Assembly (NCBI RefSeq): GCF_900111645.1
Contig: NZ_FOHQ01000004.1
Location: 124,001-188,000 of the forward strand
Direction: 5' to 3'
Length of the DNA stretch: 64,000 bases
From: Methanococcoides vulcani
GTDB taxonomy: Archaea; Halobacteriota; Methanosarcinia; Methanosarcinales; Methanosarcinaceae
The translations under genes and the position numbers were made by a program. Below, one piece after another: positions 27,230 to 41,625 of this stretch. Position 1 is the first letter of the stretch, and each line of letters starts with the position of its first letter. Under the pieces are notes generated by a model. It saw only the letters and a list, made by a program, of their open reading frames with translations. It had not been told where the DNA came from and did no database searches.

Positions 27230-28747
27230 ATGCCCAAAGAAAAATTGGCATGTGATCCACATAAGGAAGCGTGTAATTTCAATCCTGCAGTTTTTTATTC
27301 TGCCTTGGGATTGGCCATACTGTTTGTGATCTGGGGAGCAGTATTTCCTGGTTCCATGCGATCTGTTTCTAATCTTGCACTGAGATTTATAATCGATCAA
27401 TTCGGTTGGTTGTACCTGTTTGCAGTGTTTGGATTTTTGATCTTTGTAATAGCGATTGCTTTGAGCAAATATGGAAGCATTAAGTTAGGTAAAGACGATG
27501 ATGTGCCAGAATATAGCACATTTTCCTGGATAGCCATGCTGTTTACTTCAGGTATGGCTATTGGTCTTGTTTTCTGGAGTATTGCAGAACCCATAACACA
27601 CTTTACGTCTCCCCCCTTCGGGTCTGCCGAAACCCCGGAGGCAGCCACGTTGGCTCTGCGTTATGTTTTCTTCCACTGGGGTTTGCATCCATGGGCTATC
27701 TACAGCCTTGTGGGCCTTTCTTTGGGTTATTTCCAGCACCGTAAAGGTCTTCCAATTCTTATCAGCTCCGTTTTCTATCCTATATTGGGAGATCGCATAT
27801 ATGGGCCAATGGGCCATGTTATCGATGTCCTGGCGGTATTTGCCACAATTTTCGGCCTGAGCACGTCTTTGGGTCTGGGTACCCTGCAGATCAGCAGTGG
27901 TCTGAATTTCTTATACAATATACCTGATTCTGATTTTGTTCACTTGTTGATCGTTGGTGTAATGACAATCATCTTCACCGGAGCAGCTGTTTTAGGTATC
28001 GAAAAAGGGATCCAGTTCATTGCTGAAAGAATTTTTTATCTGGCTTTGATACTGATGGGATTCCTCCTTGTATTTGGACCTACGACATTCATATTTGACA
28101 TGTTAACAAATACGACCGGGTCTTACCTACAAAACATCTTGTCCATGAGTTTGTGGACCGATCCTGTAATAAAAAGCGGTTGGCTTGGTAGCTGGACTCT
28201 GTTCTACTGGGCATGGTGGATATCATGGGGACCTTTCGTAGGCCAGTTCATTGCCAGAATTTCCAGAGGCAGAACCATTCGTGAATTTGTTATCGGGGTC
28301 CTTATAGTTCCGACTGCATTCAGTTTCTTGTGGTTGGGAATTTTCGGTTCGACTGCTCTTGAAATAGAATTGTTTGGTAATGGTGGCATTGTTGAGGCTG
28401 TTTCGCAAAACGTGGCATCTGCCTTATTTGTTACATTGGCCAACTATCCCCTGTCATCAATAACTTCAATTATTGCTATCGTCCTGGTTGCCGGGTTCTT
28501 TGTCACTTCAGCAGATGCAGGGACCTATGTTGTAGCCATGCTCACTTCCAATGGTAGCTTAGAGCCAAAGGACAGTGTAAAAGCCATTTGGGGTATCATT
28601 TTGGGCTCGGTGGCATCTGTTCTTCTGGTGACAGGTGGGCTGGTTGCATTGCAGACCGCGGCCATTGTAGCGGCTTTCCCATTCATGTTCGTGATGATTG
28701 CAATGGTTTATTCCATTATCAAAGCTATAAGTTCAGAAAAGGTCTAA
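27230..28747 (+). CDS. BCCT family betaine transporter (first copy)
   Basis: The 505-aa carrier has the twelve-helix BCCT layout. The signature WAWWISWGPFVGQFIARISR-GRTIREF (around residue 325) supplies the aromatic and Gly residues of the betaine site. Later come SADAGTYVVAML and helices 10-12. The N-terminus carries the unusual CDPHKEACNFNP, with two cysteines kept in the second copy. It probably takes up glycine betaine or a similar trimethylammonium compound by ion symport. Unlike the second copy it has no methyltransferase gene next to it, so it may serve osmoprotection. Confidence 0.93.
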   Translation: MPKEKLACDPHKEACNFNPAVFYSALGLAILFVIWGAVFPGSMRSVSNLALRFIIDQFGWLYLFAVFGFLIFVIAIALSKYGSIKLGKDDDVPEYSTFSWIAMLFTSGMAIGLVFWSIAEPITHFTSPPFGSAETPEAATLALRYVFFHWGLHPWAIYSLVGLSLGYFQHRKGLPILISSVFYPILGDRIYGPMGHVIDVLAVFATIFGLSTSLGLGTLQISSGLNFLYNIPDSDFVHLLIVGVMTIIFTGAAVLGIEKGIQFIAERIFYLALILMGFLLVFGPTTFIFDMLTNTTGSYLQNILSMSLWTDPVIKSGWLGSWTLFYWAWWISWGPFVGQFIARISRGRTIREFVIGVLIVPTAFSFLWLGIFGSTALEIELFGNGGIVEAVSQNVASALFVTLANYPLSSITSIIAIVLVAGFFVTSADAGTYVVAMLTSNGSLEPKDSVKAIWGIILGSVASVLLVTGGLVALQTAAIVAAFPFMFVMIAMVYSIIKAISSEKV

Positions 28748-30295: not shown

Positions 30296-32674
30296 ATGAA
30301 ATCCAACTTAGAGAACAGCGAGCTGGAATGGCTTCACAAAAATAGCCGTATGTTTGCAATTTTATGGAAACCTGTAGGTAATTGGGCAGTGGAATTTGTT
30401 TCAGAGAATATTAATCAATATGGATATGCACAAGAAGAGTTCTCATCTGGAAAAATGATGTATCGTGACATAATATATCCTGAAGACATTGAGATGATCA
30501 ACTTTGCGTTATTAGAATGTAGGAAAAATAAAGATGAGCAGTTCCTTGATCTGGAATACAGGATAATAAGCAGGTCCGGAAAATTGCACTGGGTTGCAGA
30601 AAGATCGATTCTGATACGTGATAATAAAGGCAACATAATTAATATTCGAGGTCTGGTCCTTGACATTACTGAACATAAGAATGCCGAACTGGAACTTAGG
30701 ATGTCAGAGGAGAAATATGTCACACTTGTAGAAAAGGGAAATGATGGAATAATAATTGTACAGGATGATACTCTAAAATTTGTAAATTCTAAAATATGTG
30801 AACTTCTGGGATATGAAAGAGAAGAGTTACTGGGTGGAGATGTTTTGGATCATGTGCCTGTCGATTATAAGCGCATGATCTCAAAAAGGTACAACAAGAC
30901 CTTAAATGACAAAATGAATGTCCGCCGTAATAGTGAAGCGGAGTTTTTAACGAAACAGGGTAACAGATTTCCTGTAGAAATCAGTTTTTCATATATTCAC
31001 CATGAACTTAAGCCTGCAGTCGTCATGACTATTAGGGATATTTCCGAGAGAAAGCGTGCTGAAATAGAGCTTAAGGACTCGGAAAAAAAATATTCCACAC
31101 TTGTGGAAAAAGGAGATGACATGATCGTCATCGTTCAAAACGACAGTCTCGCTTTTTCAAATCCAAAATTTAGGTCTGTAACAGGCTATCAAAAAGATGA
31201 GGCAATTGGTAAGCGTTTCTCGGAATTCTTTTCAAAAGGATATCGCAAGATGATAGGTGAACGTTTCAGGGGTGATATGGCTAAGAACTGGACTTCTCCT
31301 CGTAAGTACGAAGTAGAACTAATTTCTAAGGACAACGAGAAGATAGCTGCTGAATTGAATTCATCCATCATCGAACATGAGGGTAAACCAGCATATATGG
31401 CAATAATAAGGGATATTCGGGAACAAAAGGAAAGGGAAAGACAACTTCTTGAATTCCTGGAAATGCAGAAACTTTTGGTAAATGTGATCAACGATAGCCC
31501 TACGATCATATTTATATGGCGGCCTGAAAATGACTGGCCGGTGGAATTCGTTTCCGAGAATATATCTCAATTTGGCTATTCCGTAGAAGATTTTACTTCG
31601 GGGAATGTATTGTATGGGGATATAATACACCCTTACGACATTGAAAATATAAAAACAGAAGTATTGCGATCCAATCAGGAGGGAAGGAATTTCTCATACG
31701 AGTACAGGATATTTACAAAATCAGGGGAAGTCCGATGGGTCGATGAAAGATCGATCTACAAACGTGATGAAAAGGGGGATGTGGAATACATACAGGGTAT
31801 TATTGTTGATATTACTGATCGCAAGAATGTAAATGACTTCATTCGTATTGAAGCCGAAGTCGGAGATTTCTTCAGCCCCGCAGGAGATATGAAAAGCGTA
31901 TTTGAACAGTTTCTTGAGTTTACATTGCAGATAGATAAGATAGATTCTGGGGCATTGTATCTTGTGGACGATCTGACAGGGGAACTAAGCATAGTGGCAC
32001 ACAGAGGATTATCCGCCAATTTTGTAAAAAGTACACGGTATTACAATCCTAACTCAATTAATGGCAAATTGTTCACAACAGAATATCCAATATATAAGTT
32101 ATATTCTGAGATAGATGCATTAAATAAAGATGAAGATCTAAGTTATGAAGATCTGAAAGCTACAGCAATAATCCCTATCAAACATAACAGGAAGATAGTT
32201 GCTGTGCTGTTTCTGGCATCCCATATTGAATTTGAGATCCCGTCAGATATCCGTAGTTCCCTCGAAACTGTTTCTATGCAGGCAGGGGCAGTTATTGGTA
32301 ACATCAGGGATAGGCCACAAATGCAAAAAAGCACAGATATTTCCCAATATCTGATCGATTCTTTGGAAGATCTTTTTTTTGTTATTGATATGGATGGATG
32401 CATACTCTACACTAATCAGTATTTCGACGATGTTATGGGCTATGTGAAAGATGAATTGATTGGCATGAGCCTTCTTAAGCTCTATCCACAAAATAAGGCA
32501 CTTGAAGCAGCTTCAGTGCTTGCGGATATTATAGCTGGAAAAAAAGCTATCTCTAATATACCCATGGAATCACATGATGGAAGCATTGTTCTAGCAGAAA
32601 CTAAATTCACAAGGGCAAAATGGAATGGCAAAGATGTATTGGTTGGACTTGGTCGTGAGCTTATTTATAGATGA
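30296..32674 (+). CDS. Multi-PAS/GAF sensor protein without output domain (second copy)
   Basis: The 792-aa soluble protein has four PAS domains (about 8-125, 135-250, 260-375, 385-510), one GAF (520-675) and a final PAS (690-790). The PAS blocks share WPVEFVSENISQFGYSVEDF and RWVDER with the 13662-16205 gene, and the GAF has DSGALYLVDDLTGELSIVAH. No kinase, receiver or other output is present. A sensor histidine kinase follows on the opposite strand. It could signal by binding a separate kinase. Confidence 0.88.
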   Translation: MKSNLENSELEWLHKNSRMFAILWKPVGNWAVEFVSENINQYGYAQEEFSSGKMMYRDIIYPEDIEMINFALLECRKNKDEQFLDLEYRIISRSGKLHWVAERSILIRDNKGNIINIRGLVLDITEHKNAELELRMSEEKYVTLVEKGNDGIIIVQDDTLKFVNSKICELLGYEREELLGGDVLDHVPVDYKRMISKRYNKTLNDKMNVRRNSEAEFLTKQGNRFPVEISFSYIHHELKPAVVMTIRDISERKRAEIELKDSEKKYSTLVEKGDDMIVIVQNDSLAFSNPKFRSVTGYQKDEAIGKRFSEFFSKGYRKMIGERFRGDMAKNWTSPRKYEVELISKDNEKIAAELNSSIIEHEGKPAYMAIIRDIREQKERERQLLEFLEMQKLLVNVINDSPTIIFIWRPENDWPVEFVSENISQFGYSVEDFTSGNVLYGDIIHPYDIENIKTEVLRSNQEGRNFSYEYRIFTKSGEVRWVDERSIYKRDEKGDVEYIQGIIVDITDRKNVNDFIRIEAEVGDFFSPAGDMKSVFEQFLEFTLQIDKIDSGALYLVDDLTGELSIVAHRGLSANFVKSTRYYNPNSINGKLFTTEYPIYKLYSEIDALNKDEDLSYEDLKATAIIPIKHNRKIVAVLFLASHIEFEIPSDIRSSLETVSMQAGAVIGNIRDRPQMQKSTDISQYLIDSLEDLFFVIDMDGCILYTNQYFDDVMGYVKDELIGMSLLKLYPQNKALEAASVLADIIAGKKAISNIPMESHDGSIVLAETKFTRAKWNGKDVLVGLGRELIYR

Positions 32675-32897: not shown

Positions 32898-34598
32898 TCA
32901 CTTAGGCAATGTTACATGAACTGTCGTACCTTTACCTTCCTCACTCTCGATCCATATATTTCCTTTATGCCCTTCAACAATGTTTTTGCAGATATACAGA
33001 CCCAACCCAGTTCCTCCGTACCTGCGCCTGATTGAAGCATCGACCTGATAAAACCTCTGGAACAGATTGGGCATCAACTCCTTTTTAATACCGATTCCAG
33101 TATCGCTTACTATAATATGCACGTTTTCATCTTCTTCAATTGCGGATACAGTTATCAAACCCCCAGAGGGTGTAAACTTTATTGCATTGTCTAAAATACT
33201 GGTCAAGATGTTGGTCAATTTGCCTTTATCACCATTTATCAGAGGTAAATCACCGGGGACATTTCTTTCGAGTGACAAATGCTTCTTCTTTATTTCCAAA
33301 AACATATCCTGAATCGCATCATTAATAATTTCTGCAATCTGAACTTTCTCAAATGCATATTCAATAGCTCCGGCTTGCACTTTACTTATGAATAATAGGG
33401 AGTCCACCAAATGCCTGAGCCGTTCAGAATTACGTAAAACTGTATCCAATGCTTTTTTTTGCTCATCGTTAATTTCACCTAACGATCTATCATCTACAAG
33501 TTCACTGTAGCCGGTTATAGAAACAAGAGGTGTTTTGAGTTCATGACTTACATTTGATATGAACTCGTCCTTCATTTTATCAAGGGATTTAAGATCCTCG
33601 TTTGCTTTTTGCAGCATCTCTTCTGCCCGCTTGCGTTCGACGATATCTGCCATTAGCTCTTCGTTTTTATCAGACAGTTCAGCTGTTTTTCTCTTGACCT
33701 GGGTATTCAGGACAGCACTTGCAGCTATGAAAAACAATAATAGTCCTCCTCCAAACCCAACTGCCAGCTTAATCCATCCGGGGATCTCAAATTCCACCAC
33801 ACTTGCAAGCCATTTATTTTGCGATTGATAGTAAATCGATTCCCTATTACCTTTCAGTGCAACCATGTGCTTATCTATGGTTTCGAGAATTTCCTTGTTT
33901 TTTCCCTTGGGCACCGCAAAACGCATTTCTATTGGAGAAAATATTATAGGAGTTTCATAAACATCATAGTCTTTTTTCTGTGGGGGATTGTATAACCTGG
34001 GGATAATTCCAGCATCAGCTGTTTTATTTTCAAGATACCCAAACACTGTTGGATAATCATCAGCTTCGATAAAGTTGCAACTGATACCAAATTGTTCTGA
34101 ATAGGGCTGGAAACTCAGATAGTATATGTCCTCTCTGAGGCCAATCACGGTTTTCTGATCCAGATCAAGGATAGATTGGATCTCAAGATCGGATCGTGTG
34201 TAGATCTGACCCCAGTCTAAAACCACAGCCTCATTTGTAAAATCGAATCTTTCCCCTCTTTCTTCAGAGTATGCTATGGCTACCAGAAGATCAATTTCAC
34301 CGGTCTCAAGTCTTTCAAGGCATTCTGCCCAAGGACACGGAACATATTCGATATTCCATCCTTCTTTTGAGGCGATGTGTTCAAGGATATCAATATAGAA
34401 GCCTCTGATCATTCCGTCATCATCTGTAAAGACCACCGGTTCATATTGATAGACTCCAACCCTTATTGTTTCCCCTTTGGCATCAACCGGATAACTCGAT
34501 ACAGATAAAAGGCAGATTACAAGGATGGCCAAAATTACAAGTTTATTTGGTCCAATAAGATAACTCGAAAATTTACAATTGTCAATCATTTCCCCCAC
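32898..34598 (-). CDS. Membrane sensor histidine kinase with periplasmic-binding-type domain
   Basis: The 566-aa protein has an N-terminal membrane segment (LVILAILVICLLSVSSYPV, about 20-38), an extracellular family-3 solute-binding domain (about 43-268: VGVYQYEPVVFTDDDGMIRG), a membrane helix (about 275-297), a coiled linker, HisKA with EFISNVSHELKTPLVS (phospho-His about 357), and HATPase motifs DNAIKFTP, DTGIGI and GTGLGLYIC. It should bind an amino-acid-like ligand outside and autophosphorylate. No response regulator is adjacent. The gene is bracketed by direct copies of repeat R1. Confidence 0.93.
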   Translation of the reverse strand: MGEMIDNCKFSSYLIGPNKLVILAILVICLLSVSSYPVDAKGETIRVGVYQYEPVVFTDDDGMIRGFYIDILEHIASKEGWNIEYVPCPWAECLERLETGEIDLLVAIAYSEERGERFDFTNEAVVLDWGQIYTRSDLEIQSILDLDQKTVIGLREDIYYLSFQPYSEQFGISCNFIEADDYPTVFGYLENKTADAGIIPRLYNPPQKKDYDVYETPIIFSPIEMRFAVPKGKNKEILETIDKHMVALKGNRESIYYQSQNKWLASVVEFEIPGWIKLAVGFGGGLLLFFIAASAVLNTQVKRKTAELSDKNEELMADIVERKRAEEMLQKANEDLKSLDKMKDEFISNVSHELKTPLVSITGYSELVDDRSLGEINDEQKKALDTVLRNSERLRHLVDSLLFISKVQAGAIEYAFEKVQIAEIINDAIQDMFLEIKKKHLSLERNVPGDLPLINGDKGKLTNILTSILDNAIKFTPSGGLITVSAIEEDENVHIIVSDTGIGIKKELMPNLFQRFYQVDASIRRRYGGTGLGLYICKNIVEGHKGNIWIESEEGKGTTVHVTLPK

Positions 34599-35086
34599 GA
34601 TTTAAAACCGACATTCATTGGAATAACATACTGAAGCGTCTTTATCTATATTATAGAAACATAGAACATATATTTATTGGATTGTAGAATTGATCAATAG
34701 GAAATACCATATGGCAGACCCATTAGAGAATTGTATATTTACCACAAAAAACAAGAGCCTTTTTACATTCCATAGGCTCAAACTCCTTAAAGAATAATTC
34801 ATTCAAAGATTAAAAGATGAGCAGCAAATAAAAACTAGAAAACACAATTTTAGGTTCTTACATTAAAGAGGATTTCTACAGAGCCCAAATATGTTATGTG
34901 TAATTACAGTCAAATCTCTTCATTCATACTACATTTTGCCATAAATGCAGTTTGAAAATTGGAACTATGCAAACCTATATGTGACATCGGTATATGTCAT
35001 ATTAGCTATATGGAGATTTTTTGAACTATCCCTGATTGCAGGCGATTTTGTCAAGGTACATACCTCCACACCCTACCGGTGATTTG
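34599..35086. other. Leader/intergenic region before corrinoid protein gene
   Basis: No gene is evident; a 28-codon ORF at 34711-34797 has no support. The region holds repeat R1 copy 2 and a TGACAT...ATGTCA inverted repeat near 34982-35000. TATA-like words just downstream suggest the corrinoid gene promoter lies within the last 100-150 nt. Confidence 0.4.
34867..34885 (+). repeat. Dispersed repeat R1, copy 2
   Basis: Identical 19-bp core to 32787-32805, same orientation, about 270 nt upstream of the kinase start. The preceding GAATTTAGG half of copy 1 is not conserved here. Confidence 0.8.
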
Positions 35087-35815
35087 ATGAAAACTGGAAA
35101 AGAGATTACTCCCGAGGAGATGGCAGCAGATCTTTATCCATCTGACACAACTGAGCGCAGAATCGCAGAAGCAGTTTTTAATGGTGATGAAGACGAGGTC
35201 ATCAGCTGTCTCAAAGAAGCTATTGATTCCGGAAGCGATCCATTGTCCTTAATAGATAAAGGGCTTCTAGCTGGAATGAGTATTGTTTCGTCACTCTATG
35301 ACAGAGATATGCTTTACTTGCCGGATATTATAATGGCTTCAAATGCAATGAAAGATGGAATCGAATATTGTAAAGAAAGATCCGGAAAAACACCTGAGCT
35401 TAAAGGAAAAGTTGTATCTTATGTAGTAGAAGGTGATATCCATGATATTGGCAAGAAAATTGTGGCTGCACTTCTCGTAGCAAAAGGATTTGAAGTAATT
35501 GACCTTGGTAGCGATGTTCCCGTAAATGAGGTGATAGATTCTGTAAAAAGGGAACATCCGATCATGTTGACAGGTACGGCGCTCATAACTATGGCAAGGT
35601 ACTCTTTCAAGGAGGTTAATGACAAGCTGCTTGAAGAAGGTATAAAAATCCCATTCTTGTGCGGTGGAGGGGGAGTTAATAGGGATTTTGTATCCAGCCT
35701 TGAGCTAGGTGTGTATTGTGAGGATGGAGTGAATGTGCCAGAAATAGCAGAAGATATCATTAATGGCGCAACTATAAAAGAATTAATACGTAAATATGTG
35801 ATATTTAATATATAA
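35087..35815 (+). CDS. Corrinoid protein of the MtbC/MtgC family (first copy)
   Basis: The 242-aa protein has an N-terminal methyltransferase cap (helical, about 10-105) and a C-terminal cobalamin-binding Rossmann domain with DIHDIGKKIVAALLVAKGF, where DxHxxG supplies the lower-ligand His. Such proteins carry the methyl group from a substrate-specific methyltransferase to coenzyme M. The ATG at 35087 follows GGTGA; a TTG at 35036 would add 17 residues. It is more diverged than the copy at 39739 and lacks an adjacent methyltransferase on its own transcript. Confidence 0.9.
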   Translation: MKTGKEITPEEMAADLYPSDTTERRIAEAVFNGDEDEVISCLKEAIDSGSDPLSLIDKGLLAGMSIVSSLYDRDMLYLPDIIMASNAMKDGIEYCKERSGKTPELKGKVVSYVVEGDIHDIGKKIVAALLVAKGFEVIDLGSDVPVNEVIDSVKREHPIMLTGTALITMARYSFKEVNDKLLEEGIKIPFLCGGGGVNRDFVSSLELGVYCEDGVNVPEIAEDIINGATIKELIRKYVIFNI

Positions 35816-36470
35816 CTATTGTGACGTCAATACGATTCGCAAATCCATACTCATTCTAGAATCTATCTACAATCGTATCTAATTTCCTTACTAAATTATT
35901 AGGTAGTGATTAAAATAGTTCCTATGGAATATTTGTTATCTAGCAAAAACAGTGTCAGTGCCCGTGAAAAAAATCTATCATTTAATGTATAACATTTGGT
36001 AATTATTTGCACAACATCTTTATTTTTTTTGTCTAAATGTTCTTCTATATAACTCTCATGCTTGAAGGGTGCTTACTTTTTTGGAACTATCTGCAAATTG
36101 TTGAACAAACGCAATCTAGCCACACTGTATAATATAATTCAGGTTCGATATTGATACTTTATAATCGATTTGTTTTTATATAATGTGCCAAAACCTCTTG
36201 ATATGCTTCTATATAAGCATTTCCATTTGTAGTGATTGAAATTTTATTTGCAGTTATCTTTTTAAATCAGAAAAAGCAAAGCGTGCGCCGCAATTATTCT
36301 TATTACTTTCATGGAAACTAAAACTCTCATGACCAATGTTCTTATATATTGGGACCTGTGGAAAAATAGCCTTATATAGTGTGCAGGCAGCCATTAGATT
36401 AGGTTCTGATGAACCATGAAATAGGTGTAATTACAAAATATTAAACAAATGTTATTTGAGGTGAAAATTG
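35816..36470 (+). promoter_or_regulatory. Long upstream region of the betaine locus
   Basis: These 650 AT-rich nt hold no gene. TATA-like CTTATATATT (36341) and CTTATATAG (36371) precede the BCCT gene, giving a leader of about 70-100 nt. There is a palindromic TGACGTCA at about 35822 and ATGCTT/AAGCAT (36203-36220). Long upstream regions are usual for methylotrophic methyltransferase operons. GAGGTGA directly precedes the ATG at 36471. Confidence 0.5.
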
Positions 36471-38006
36471 ATGGCTGAAAATGATTCGTCTATCGAAGAA
36501 GGATATGTTTGCGATCCACATAAAGAAACATGCAGGATCAATCCGATTGTGTTTTATGTGTCCCTGGTAATAGCAGGTGTATTCGTATTGTGGGGTGCAA
36601 TTAACCCTGAATCACTTAATGTTGTTTTCAACGCTATATTAGGTTTTACGATTGATACTTTTGGTTGGTTATACTTGGTTGCAGTTTTGTTCTTCCTAGT
36701 GTTCGCAGTAGGAATAGCCATGAGCAAATATGGCAAGATCAAATTAGGTAAAGACGATGATGAACCTGAGTACAGCAATTTTGCATGGCTGGCTATGCTC
36801 TTTACATCAGGAATGGGAATCGGTCTTATGTTCTGGAGTATTGCCGAACCCATGTATCATTATTTAGCTCCTCCAGTTGGGCAGGGCAGCACCCCCGAAG
36901 CTGCTGAATTGGGAATGCGTTATGTTTTCTTCCACTGGGGTCTGCACGCATGGGGTATTTTCACACTTGTAGGGCTTGCACTGGCTTACTTCCAATACCG
37001 CAGAGGAATGCCCGGACTTATTAGTTCAGTTTTCCATCCGATCCTTGGAGACCGCATACATGGTCCTATTGGAAATGCCATTGATATTCTTGCAGTATTT
37101 GCAACGATTTTCGGACTGGGCACATCCCTTGGACTGGGAGCTTTGCAGATCAACACCGGTCTGAACTTCATGTTCAACGTCCCCATCGGCGGCACTATAC
37201 AGGTAATAATTATTGCATTGGTCGCAATCCTCTTTACTGGCGCAGCAGTTGCCGGTATTGAAAAAGGAATTGAGTTCATTGCTAAATGGACAGTTTATTT
37301 CGCACTTGGATTAATGGCATTCCTATTCATATTCGGTCCAACCACATTCATCCTCAATATGCTGACAAGTACCACTGGATCATACTTCAACGAATTCTTT
37401 ACGATGAGCTTGTGGACAGATGCAATCGAACAGAAAGGTTGGGGCGGTAGCTGGACCATATTCTACTGGGCATGGTGGATCGCATGGGGACCATTCGTTG
37501 GTCAGTTCGTTGCAAGGATCTCAAAAGGAAGAACTATCCGAGAATTTGTTGCAGGAGCACTTCTTGCACCAACAGCATTCAGCTTTGTCTGGCTTGCAGT
37601 ATTTGGTGGTAACGCACTCGGACTTGAGATCTTCAGTGGAGCCGGAATCGCCGATGCGGTTAATACAAATCTTGCATCAGCAGTGTTTGTCACCCTATCC
37701 AACTACCCAATACCAATGATAACATCGATCGTTGCAATCATCCTGGTCATTGGATTCTTTGTAACATCAGCAGATGCAGGAACTTTCGTTCTAGGTATGC
37801 TTACTTCTAATGGTAGTATGGAGCCTTCAGGCAAGGTGAAGGGCATATGGGGAGTTACAATCGCCAGTGTAGCAGCAATTCTCCTTGTCACAGGGGGATT
37901 AACGGCTTTGCAGACAGCATCGATCGCAGCAGCATTCCCATTCATGTTCGTGATACTGGCAATGTGTTATTCTTTGCTGAAAGCTCTGAAAGAGGACCAC
38001 TCCTAA
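36471..38006 (+). CDS. BCCT family glycine betaine transporter (second copy)
   Basis: The 511-aa carrier is a close paralogue of the 27230 gene, with CDPHKETCRINP at the N-terminus, the BCCT signature WAWWIAWGPFVGQFVARISK-GRTIREF and SADAGTFVLGML. It lies 30 nt before the MttB-family methyltransferase, so uptake of the methylated substrate, most likely glycine betaine, is its expected job. GAGGTGA decides the ATG at 36471 over a TTG just upstream. Twelve membrane helices are predicted. Confidence 0.95.
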   Translation: MAENDSSIEEGYVCDPHKETCRINPIVFYVSLVIAGVFVLWGAINPESLNVVFNAILGFTIDTFGWLYLVAVLFFLVFAVGIAMSKYGKIKLGKDDDEPEYSNFAWLAMLFTSGMGIGLMFWSIAEPMYHYLAPPVGQGSTPEAAELGMRYVFFHWGLHAWGIFTLVGLALAYFQYRRGMPGLISSVFHPILGDRIHGPIGNAIDILAVFATIFGLGTSLGLGALQINTGLNFMFNVPIGGTIQVIIIALVAILFTGAAVAGIEKGIEFIAKWTVYFALGLMAFLFIFGPTTFILNMLTSTTGSYFNEFFTMSLWTDAIEQKGWGGSWTIFYWAWWIAWGPFVGQFVARISKGRTIREFVAGALLAPTAFSFVWLAVFGGNALGLEIFSGAGIADAVNTNLASAVFVTLSNYPIPMITSIVAIILVIGFFVTSADAGTFVLGMLTSNGSMEPSGKVKGIWGVTIASVAAILLVTGGLTALQTASIAAAFPFMFVILAMCYSLLKALKEDHS

Positions 38007-38036
38007 AAGATATACTCTATGATAAGAGGTGTTTAA

Positions 38037-39464
38037 ATGTTACCAAAATTAGATGTGCTAAGCCCTGAACAGGTGGAAGCTATTCATGAACATACTATGA
38101 AGATACTGGAGGAAGTCGGGCTCGATTTCCTCTACGAGCCTGCACTTGAGGTCTTTAAGGCACATGGGCAGAGGGTTGAAGGGAATAGAGTTTATTTTGA
38201 CAGAGGGTTTATAGAGGAGCAAATAAAGAAAGCTCCATCTCAGTTTACTTTACATGCTCGAAATCCCGAAAACGATCTTGTTTGTGGTGGAGACAACATA
38301 ATCTTCATGCCTGGATATGGTGTTTCATTTATTTACGAAGCTGATGGAACTCGCCGTGATTCTGTCATGGAAGATTATGATAACTTTGTAAAACTGGCAG
38401 GCGCCAGTGAGAATCTTCACATGACCGGAGGCAATATCGCTGATCCAAGCGACATAACTGAAGAAATTCGCCATTTGAAGATGTTGTACAGCTCTATCAA
38501 AAATTCAGATAAGTGTTTTATGGGCAGTGCTTCAAACAGGGAAAGGGCTGAAGATGTTATTGAGATGACGGCAATCCTTTTCGGTGGAAAAGAAGTTATT
38601 AAGGAAAAGCCGGCGATCATCTGTTTGATCAATTCGATCACTCCGCTTAAATTTGATGATTATATGGCGGGTTCACTGATGGCTTATGCCGAAGCCGGTC
38701 AGCCTGTTGTCATTGCAGCTTTGGTAATGGCTGGTTCGTCAGGTCCTGCATCAATAGCAGGATCTCTTTCCCTGCAAAATGCTGAAGTTCTGGCAGGCAT
38801 TGCTCTGGCACAGTGCGTAAATCCGGGAACTCCGGTAGTTTATGGATCATCCTCAGCGATCACGGATATGAAAACAGGTGCATTATGCATTGGAAATCCG
38901 GAATGTGCGCTGTTCACATCGGTCTGTGCTCAAATGGGAAGGCACTACGGAATACCTACCCGTAGTGGCGGTGGTCTGACAGATTCTAAGGTAGTGGATG
39001 CACAGGCAGGCTATGAATCAATGATGACACTCATGAATGCAGGTGTTACTGGTATCAACTATGTACTTCACACAGCCGGTATACTTGAGGGATACATGGC
39101 AATGTCATATGAGAAATTCATAGTCGATGATGAAATTGCAGGTATGGTACTTCGCTACCTCAAAGGGATCGACTTTTCGGAAGAGGCGTTTGCTTTTGAT
39201 GTGATCAAAAAAGTTGGACCAGGGGAACATTTCCTGGCACAGAAACACACCAGGAAATACTACCCTATTGAACTTCGCGATGCTGATCTAAGTGACAGGC
39301 TGCCGTATACTGACTGGGTAAAGGCTGGTCTGGATACTCTTCAGCGTGCAAATAAACAGTGGCAAGATGTGCTGGATAATTATGAACCACCAGAACTTGA
39401 TACGGCTGTTGATGAAGCTCTCCAAAAGTTTATGGAGAAACGCACTGCTGAATTAACAAAATAA
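38037..39464 (+). CDS. mtgB: MttB-family glycine betaine:corrinoid methyltransferase (no pyrrolysine)
   Basis: The 475-aa protein belongs to the trimethylamine methyltransferase (MttB) superfamily, with LSPEQVEAIHEHTMKILEEV at the N-terminus and GSSSAITDMKTGALCIGNPE mid-protein. It has no in-frame TAG, unlike pyrrolysine MttB. Characterised non-Pyl members (MtgB) demethylate glycine betaine to dimethylglycine and methylate a corrinoid protein. The betaine carrier just upstream and the corrinoid gene downstream support that role. A related quaternary amine is possible. AGAGGTG precedes the ATG. Confidence 0.9.
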   Translation: MLPKLDVLSPEQVEAIHEHTMKILEEVGLDFLYEPALEVFKAHGQRVEGNRVYFDRGFIEEQIKKAPSQFTLHARNPENDLVCGGDNIIFMPGYGVSFIYEADGTRRDSVMEDYDNFVKLAGASENLHMTGGNIADPSDITEEIRHLKMLYSSIKNSDKCFMGSASNRERAEDVIEMTAILFGGKEVIKEKPAIICLINSITPLKFDDYMAGSLMAYAEAGQPVVIAALVMAGSSGPASIAGSLSLQNAEVLAGIALAQCVNPGTPVVYGSSSAITDMKTGALCIGNPECALFTSVCAQMGRHYGIPTRSGGGLTDSKVVDAQAGYESMMTLMNAGVTGINYVLHTAGILEGYMAMSYEKFIVDDEIAGMVLRYLKGIDFSEEAFAFDVIKKVGPGEHFLAQKHTRKYYPIELRDADLSDRLPYTDWVKAGLDTLQRANKQWQDVLDNYEPPELDTAVDEALQKFMEKRTAELTK

Positions 39465-39738
39465 AGTAGGTTCATTTCAAGAAGCTGATCTACTGACTGA
39501 AAAGCAACCCGGTCGTTGATGCTAATTCGCTGGTATCAACTTCTTTTTCTTTAATTTCGAAAAATTGATGGTTCAAAAACAGCCGTAGATCTTGCAGACG
39601 AAAAACCAGGATGAATATTGGAAGATCACTGACCTTATGTTTTTGATACTGATATTGTGAAAGATATGATAGTCTTGTTGCAGGAAAGAACAGAATTCCT
39701 GCAACAAATTAAATAAATTGAAAAAAGGAGATTACAAT
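39465..39738 (+). promoter_or_regulatory. mtgB-mtgC spacer with strong stem-loop
   Basis: A perfect 12-bp inverted repeat TTGTTGCAGGAA/TTCCTGCAACAA (39675-39686, 39696-39707, 9-nt loop) ends 31 nt before the corrinoid start, and AAAGGAG lies at 39724-39730. It may stabilise or process the mRNA so that mtgC is made in excess. A 27-codon open stretch ending at the AAATAA near 39716 covers the hairpin and could be a remnant. Confidence 0.6.
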
Positions 39739-40389
39739 ATGGTTACACAAGATGAAATTAACGCAAAAGCAAAAGCTGCAGTCATGGATTTCGATGACGA
39801 AGCAGTAGAAGAAATATGTGAAGAAGCAATCGATGCAGGAGTCGATGTAGTATCCCTTATTCAGGACGGTCTTACTGCAGGTATGAACGAAGTAGGAGAC
39901 CAGTTCGAACAGGGTACTCTTTTCCTTCCACACGTAATTGCAGCATCCGAAGCAATGAGCGCTGGTGTCGCAGTACTTACCCCAGTCCTTGAGGCACAGG
40001 GTGGGGCTGTAAAATCAAAGGGAACAATCGTCATCGGTACCATCGAGGGTGACATCCACTCCATCGGTAAGGACATTGTTGCAACAATGCTCAAGATCGC
40101 TGGATTCAAGGTCGTTGACCTCGGCAGGGACGTTGCAATCGGTACATACGTCGATGCAGTCAAGGAACACAAGCCACTTGTAATCGGTTCTTCCGCACTT
40201 ATGACCACAACAATGGTCCTTCAGATGCAGATCGAAGAGCAGCTTAAGGAAGCTGGAATCCGTGACTCTGTCATGACCATGGTCGGTGGCGCACCTGTCA
40301 CACAGGACTGGGCAGACAAGATCGGCTCAGACATCTACGCTGAGAACGCGACAGATGCAGTCGTTAAATGTAACGCAGCTGCTGAGTGA
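39739..40389 (+). CDS. mtgC: Corrinoid protein for the betaine methyltransferase
   Basis: The 216-aa protein has the methyltransferase cap (DEINAKAKAAVMDFDDEAVE, about 4-85) and cobalamin domain with EGDIHSIGKDIVATMLKIAG (DxHxxG His). It accepts the methyl group from MtgB on Co(I) and passes it to a coenzyme M methyltransferase, not found in this window. The ATG at 39739 has AAAGGAG 8 nt upstream. Codon use is visibly more GC-biased at third positions than in the upstream genes, typical of a highly expressed gene. Confidence 0.93.
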   Translation: MVTQDEINAKAKAAVMDFDDEAVEEICEEAIDAGVDVVSLIQDGLTAGMNEVGDQFEQGTLFLPHVIAASEAMSAGVAVLTPVLEAQGGAVKSKGTIVIGTIEGDIHSIGKDIVATMLKIAGFKVVDLGRDVAIGTYVDAVKEHKPLVIGSSALMTTTMVLQMQIEEQLKEAGIRDSVMTMVGGAPVTQDWADKIGSDIYAENATDAVVKCNAAAE

Positions 40390-40408
40390 TCGATAGTCAC
40401 AAATGAAA

Positions 40409-40440
40409 GATAGATCCACATTGGATCTATCCATTATTTT
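40409..40440 (+). terminator. Hairpin terminator after mtgC
   Basis: GATAGATCC/GGATCTATC (40409-40417, 40423-40431, 5-nt loop) is followed by ATTATTTTC. It lies 20 nt after the mtgC stop. The remaining 310 nt to the next gene hold nothing recognisable. Confidence 0.7.
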
Positions 40441-40749: not shown

Positions 40750-41625
40750 TCATTTCCCATTTTCCTTTTCTGCAAGAAGTACCGCAAATAGGATCATCAA
40801 TATTCCTGCAAACTGCCATATGGATAATATTTCATTAAAAACGGATATTCCGATAGTTGTTGCAACAACGGGTTCTACTGCTGCTATGATGGATGCTTTG
40901 CTGGCCTCCACGTAGTGAAGACCTTTTGTATAAAGGACATATCCCAGTACGGTCGGAATAAGGCCAAGACCAAATATGTAAAACAATGTGTCGATGTTAT
41001 GAGAAACAGTGATCACAGCTCCCATTCCACTAATGGGAAACAGGCCAATGGTTGCGGTAACAAACGTATAGGTTATAACGGTCATAGGATCATATTTTTC
41101 AAGGGCGGCTTTTCCTAATATAGTGTAAAGGGCATAACCAAAACCAGACCCCAGACCTATGAGAAGCATGCTGGTCGAGAGTAAGACCCCCCCTGATGGA
41201 AGATAACCTGATATGAGAACGCATCCGGCAACAGCTACGGTTAATGCAAAGATCTTGATCGAAGAGAGTCTTTCTTTAAAGACCATTCGGGACATGAGCA
41301 GTACAAAGATGGGAGCAGTGTAGAGAAGGATTGCTGCTATTGCAACAGAAGCTTCTCGGATGGTTGTGAAATAACACCAGTTAAAAAAAACAAGGCTGAA
41401 AATGCCAGTCCCGATAAAATAATAGGTGTCAGAAAAGCGGATGTTAAAAAGTTCCCTATTTGTAAGGCCTATGTATACGAACATGATCAAAGCTGCGCTT
41501 AGAACCCTGAGAAACACAATTTCCAGGGCTGAAAATCCTGCTTCATAAAGAGCATTGACAAAAATTGAGATCGATGCCCAAAATGCGGCACCTGTTCCAA
41601 TTAAAGCATATGAATGTTTTTTCAT
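40750..41625 (-). CDS. EamA/DMT family transporter
   Basis: The 291-aa protein has ten membrane helices in two EamA repeats. It opens SYALIGTGAAFWASISIFVN and contains EVASVAIAAILLYTAPIFV-like and VEASKASIIAAVEPVVATTI segments, the ends of each repeat. These carriers move amino acids or metabolites. It lies convergent to mtgC. The substrate is not deducible. Confidence 0.9.
   Translation of the reverse strand: MKKHSYALIGTGAAFWASISIFVNALYEAGFSALEIVFLRVLSAALIMFVYIGLTNRELFNIRFSDTYYFIGTGIFSLVFFNWCYFTTIREASVAIAAILLYTAPIFVLLMSRMVFKERLSSIKIFALTVAVAGCVLISGYLPSGGVLLSTSMLLIGLGSGFGYALYTILGKAALEKYDPMTVITYTFVTATIGLFPISGMGAVITVSHNIDTLFYIFGLGLIPTVLGYVLYTKGLHYVEASKASIIAAVEPVVATTIGISVFNEILSIWQFAGILMILFAVLLAEKENGK

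Follow-up and report, generated by a model that had tools for sequence, protein, structure and literature searches.

A probable composite glycine betaine methanogenesis locus in Methanococcoides vulcani, with an MttC-like carrier and a putative PAS/MtaC regulatory pair

Gene content of the locus

We describe a locus in the window (the whole stretch of 64,000 nucleotides of Methanococcoides vulcani DNA that was analysed) which we regard as probably a composite locus for methanogenesis from glycine betaine (GB), in which a bacterial-type MtgB works with a carrier copied from MttC and a PAS/MtaC pair regulates the operon. Its core consists of three genes on the forward strand, opuD (36471-38006), mtgB (38037-39464) and mtgC (39739-40389). 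Upstream lie a forward-strand gene for an MtaC-type corrinoid protein (35087-35815), a reverse-strand gene for a sensor histidine kinase with an extracellular solute-binding (SBP_bac_3) domain (32898-34598) and a forward-strand gene for a multi-PAS/GAF protein of 792 aa (30296-32674), the last two assigned by Pfam. A sequence-only reading of this DNA had described a BCCT carrier, an MttB-family enzyme without pyrrolysine and a corrinoid protein in that order, with a second corrinoid gene just upstream, and all of these are present. It overlooked the PAS/GAF gene, as far as which the functional unit extends, and the origin of MtgC as a copy of MttC. The likely start codons are the ATGs at 35087, 36471 and 39739, not TTGs further upstream.

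The whole gene set is found in the same order in two other archaea, M. seepicolus LLY and Methanolobus vulcani B1d, and the arrangement is therefore not a product of chance. The genome is a 2.31 Mb Methanosarcinaceae genome whose nearest relatives are Methanococcoides (M. seepicolus LLY). The search covered one genome per species; the LLY assembly is fragmented and some of its contigs are duplicated.

MtgB and the betaine operon

MtgB belongs to the COG5598/MTTB fold family (PF06253, 570 bits). Glycine betaine demethylation by this enzyme is strongly supported by its 86% identity to the proven Methanolobus vulcani B1d enzyme MV8460, its 93% identity to the enzyme of M. seepicolus LLY, which grows on betaine, and the retention of all the predicted GB-site residues (Y94, N199, R309 and H345). 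Its best PDB match is 9yce, a 'glycine betaine methyltransferase'. Pyrrolysine read-through is ruled out, since there is no in-frame TAG. The genome carries a third gene of the MttB family (G000:C10:37223-38623, L002), which likewise has no TAG and is about 30% identical to MtgB.

The closest characterized system is opuD-mtgB-mtgC of B1d (MV8455-MV8460-MV8465), with the same genes in the same order at 79-86% identity. Creighbaum et al. (2019, PMC6855144) report that MV8460 methylates cobalamin with glycine betaine, that the complete GB:CoM pathway was reconstituted in vitro, and that GB methyl transfer used MtaA and RamM, proteins of the methanol side. Given the 86% identity to the proven enzyme and the shared gene order, the core of the locus is therefore already known. 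Betaine supports growth of M. seepicolus, with a yield of about 0.75 CH4 per betaine (PMC8547467), and its mtgB locus shows complete synteny with the window from the PAS gene to the EamA gene.

In sequence MtgB has a bacterial affinity, grouping with bacterial enzymes: it is 65-68% identical to those of Acetobacterium and its relatives (67% for Acetobacterium) versus 30-35% to archaeal MttBs. The bacterial MtgB-MtgC systems (Desulfitobacterium, Acetobacterium) resemble the window in having the corrinoid gene directly downstream of mtgB, but their corrinoid partner is from a different subfamily, and the PAS/MtaC pair was not found at the bacterial loci examined. MtgB of this kind is present in only three of 112 Methanosarcinaceae genomes, and a 393-genome sample of the phylum added a single relative at 43% identity. 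The published COG5598 tree includes two archaeal MtgBs only, those of B1d and Methanococcoides vulcani SLH33 (PMC6855144).

The BCCT carrier exceeds the threshold of NF047988, the glycine betaine BCCT equivalog (733 bits, cut-off 650), and is 95% identical to OpuD of LLY and 85% to that of B1d. The leader in front of opuD (36360-36470, forward strand) is conserved with B1d (72% over about 112 bp) and holds a TATA-like TTTATATA, which is consistent with a separate transcript for opuD-mtgB-mtgC. Promoter DNA common to the GB operon and the mta operons was sought, with no convincing match. Another BCCT carrier, sharing 65% identity with OpuD, is encoded at 27230-28747 of the window, and B1d likewise has a similar second copy immediately upstream of its PAS gene (L013 583-1974). 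On the other side, an EamA-type transporter gene on the opposite strand (40750-41625) follows the locus in each of the three archaea (87-92%); further EamA genes, only distantly related, adjoin Methanolobus mta loci.

By family, OpuD would import glycine betaine, and MtgB, by its identity to the B1d enzyme, would demethylate it once, to dimethylglycine, with Co(I) of MtgC as the methyl acceptor. Methyl-MtgC would then be demethylated by a CoM methyltransferase of the MtaA/MtbA type and re-reduced by a Ram protein, both encoded elsewhere in the genome, where we find three MtaA/MtbA-family proteins and two full-length Ram proteins. A carrier of the MttC type would suggest MtbA and RamA, whereas B1d used MtaA and RamM.

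Origin of MtgC

The MtgC of the window is 95.8% identical to the genome's own MttC, whose gene follows the TAG-containing mttB on contig C5, versus 92.6% to the MtgC of LLY, and only 41-43% to bacterial MtgC at Acetobacterium loci. It falls below both NCBIfam MtgC cut-offs (NF047995, 186 of 310 bits; NF047996, 178 of 370 bits); with archaeal MtgC missed by both models, automatic annotation will therefore label it as a corrinoid protein of the dimethylamine or a generic kind. In our tree the three archaeal MtgCs, that of B1d included, are interleaved with Methanococcoides MttC (clade 100/99). A single clade of the three archaeal MtgCs is disfavoured (AU p 0.023), and a grouping of B1d MtgC with Methanolobus MttC is rejected (AU p 0.001).

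The DNA similarity between mtgC and mttC is confined to the coding region, beginning some 15 bases ahead of the ATG and ending at the stop, and the flanks of mtgC are orthologous between the window and LLY. Among informative sites of the four genes, 25 pair mtgC with mttC within a genome, none pairs mtgC with mtgC and two pair crosswise. In LLY, dS between mtgC and mttC is 0.055, versus 0.283 between mtgC of the window and of LLY (0.24 for mtgB). Homogenization of mtgC with the resident mttC is thus seen in two Methanococcoides genomes, LLY mtgC having been homogenized with LLY mttC and not with mttC of the window genome. B1d differs in that its MtgC is a diverged MttC of the Methanococcoides type, while that of the window is near-identical to the host MttC. 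These patterns are most simply explained if mtgC has repeatedly undergone gene conversion by mttC (or been repeatedly replaced by it): the native MttC would have been duplicated behind mtgB and held MttC-like thereafter.

As long as MtgC remains so nearly the same as MttC, MtgB has to accept an MttC-type surface. MttB and MtgB can therefore probably share corrinoid proteins, and cross-use of carriers with MttB is a direct prediction. The derivation of B1d MtgC from the Methanococcoides branch suggests that the cassette passed from Methanococcoides to Methanolobus. Between the window and LLY, dS is 0.08 for opuD (36471-38006 versus L014 6276-7811) and 0.18-0.32 for the PAS, MtaC-like, mtgB and mtgC genes, as against 0.65 and 1.6 for the two mtaC genes, which suggests that the cassette has recently spread by lateral transfer among Methanococcoides.

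The MtaC-like protein and its PAS/GAF partner

The phylogeny of the two corrinoid proteins, which the sequence-only reading had proposed as a check, places the downstream one in the MttC clade and the upstream one with the methanol (MtaC) type. The best model for the upstream gene is NCBIfam MtaC_Meth (363 bits, below the cut-off of 420); by this score and by the tree, a second MtgC/MttC is rejected. Its predicted fold resembles MtaC of the methanol:CoM methyltransferase (2i2x_B, TM 0.92, 56% identity in the structure match), with which it shares the His ligand motif. Unlike that MtaC it has no MtaB partner, it is linked to a PAS gene and its LMTTTM motif is changed.

With its orthologues from B1d and LLY it forms a clade (100/100 in a 62-row MtaC tree), which joins 16 MtaB-less, PAS/GAF-adjacent MtaCs of methanol loci from the genera g10 (Methanolobus) and g11 (99/99). 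A separate set (100/99) holds the 27 MtaCs that have no PAS gene next to them; almost all of these are followed immediately by MtaB. Among the 112 Methanosarcinaceae genomes, the three with MtgB are the three with the MtaC-like protein (72-100%; next 62%), although the three GB loci may go back to a common origin and their co-occurrence is therefore not three independent observations.

The GB members keep the cobalt-ligand motif DxHxxG and the GG. The third Thr of LMTTTM, present in all 59 other MtaCs compared, is replaced in the GB members by Ala or Gly (Ala in the window) followed by Arg or Lys. In 1y80, 7xcn, 3ezx and 8ssd this column holds Ser or Thr, and it aligns with Ser810 (E. coli MetH numbering), the serine in methionine synthase's His-Asp-Ser ligand triad. 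The dN/dS of the gene is 0.11 with LLY and 0.16 with B1d, and it is therefore maintained under purifying selection. Methanol-locus members of the same clade retain the Thr motif and could be catalytic. We infer that the GB protein, though still a corrinoid protein, no longer takes part in methyl transfer and has been retained for sensing.

The sequence-only reading had allowed either regulation or pairing with another methyltransferase for this protein. The MtaC fold, the intact His ligand motif, the purifying selection and the two MtaB genes elsewhere in the genome, on another contig, would all suit a working methyl carrier for MtaB (methanol) or another methyltransferase, placed upstream only to ensure co-expression. 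We think this unlikely: MtaB is absent beside the gene at all three GB loci and at those of its 16 clade relatives, the MtaB-linked MtaCs fall in the other clade, the linkage is always to a PAS gene instead of MtaB, and the motif otherwise invariant has changed. Since the protein is MtaB-less, PAS-linked and co-inherited, regulation is favoured over such pairing.

Co-inheritance with mtgB in all three archaea would also fit a part in betaine catabolism itself, for example as a second acceptor for MtgB or by taking on a subsequent methyl group (dimethylglycine), and so as a link to MtaA and RamM; these serve the GB pathway of B1d, and their use there therefore leaves room for a metabolic role (PMC6855144). 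We consider this role improbable. MtgB has a dedicated MttC-type partner, the MtaC-like protein was not needed when the pathway was reconstituted, a ratio of 0.75 CH4 per betaine indicates a single demethylation (PMC6855144, PMC8547467), and the clade relatives stand at methanol loci without betaine genes.

Regulation is also suggested by the neighbouring PAS/GAF gene, which has orthologues at 91% in LLY and 70% in B1d; the next relatives (49-55%) are PAS proteins encoded beside mtaC. A Pfam search of the PAS/GAF protein found no kinase, DNA-binding or recognised output domain. The PAS tree repeats the grouping of the MtaC tree, with the GB member among PAS proteins of MtaB-less mta loci (99/99). 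The gene order matches as well: at the g11 methanol loci PAS is followed by an MtaB-less mtaC, about 630 bp and mtaCB, and at the GB loci by the mtaC-like gene, 644-786 bp and opuD-mtgB-mtgC. The matching orders and trees indicate a two-gene module that has been inherited together. An MtaB-less MtaC and a multi-PAS/GAF gene ahead of mtaCB recur in many Methanolobus and related genomes (methanol loci L137, L139, L142, L151 and L157), an arrangement apparently undescribed. In Methanococcoides there is also a PAS-adjacent mtaCB; a degenerate MtaB as its explanation is unsupported, the Zn-ligand positions Glu/Cys/Cys being kept.

In the Methanococcoides GB loci a histidine kinase gene stands between the PAS and MtaC-like genes. 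The kinase is 91% identical in LLY (next 55%) and missing from the B1d locus; found in the two Methanococcoides loci only, it is therefore not a required part of the set.

That the order is the one seen at g11 mta loci, gap included, could also mean that opuD-mtgBC was inserted into an mta locus and that the PAS and MtaC-like genes are its remnants, with no present role. This seems very improbable to us in view of the dN/dS of the MtaC-like gene and of the PAS gene (0.22), the intactness of both genes in two genera, and the fact that the MtaC relatives at mta loci are already MtaB-less.

From the composition of the locus, its clades, the co-inheritance, the purifying selection and the changed residue, all of them read from the sequence, the PAS/MtaC pair is likely a regulator of the betaine operon. 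As a copy of the two-gene module that stands ahead of mtaCB operons, it would regulate the operon that follows. The PAS protein would then be informed of corrinoid or methyl status by the MtaC-like protein, which would carry no methyl flux itself. The B1d locus has the PAS and MtaC-like genes upstream too, which find no mention in the passages of PMC6855144 that were searched; in PMC8547467 the name mtaC occurs solely in the legend to a figure of mtgB clusters. The literature available without subscription yielded nothing relevant on a PAS-linked or MtaB-less MtaC, or on MtgC together with MttC.

More broadly, and with somewhat less than even confidence, we speculate that methylotrophic methanogens possess a regulatory module of a multi-PAS/GAF protein and a catalytically retired MtaC, in which the corrinoid protein senses methyl or cobalt state and controls the methyltransferase operon that follows, and that this module moved from a methanol locus to an imported betaine demethylase running on the host MttC.

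Conclusions

Three things go beyond the sequence-only reading: the origin of MtgC, the PAS-linked, MtaB-less MtaC module and the altered Thr residue. In the published view (PMC6855144), methanogens could gain betaine metabolism by taking up a methyltransferase and its cognate corrinoid protein as a pair, and no productive pairing of non-cognate methyltransferase and corrinoid protein has been reported. The locus contradicts the cognate-pair view, in that an mtgB of bacterial affinity appears to have been fitted to the host MttC, with the two carriers apparently kept alike by gene conversion. The sharing of corrinoid proteins between MttB and MtgB becomes directly testable, and an mtgB fitted to MttC would lower the barrier to new methyl substrates. 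If the MtaC-like protein is indeed a regulator, methanogens would have a further, novel means of sensing methylotrophic substrates.
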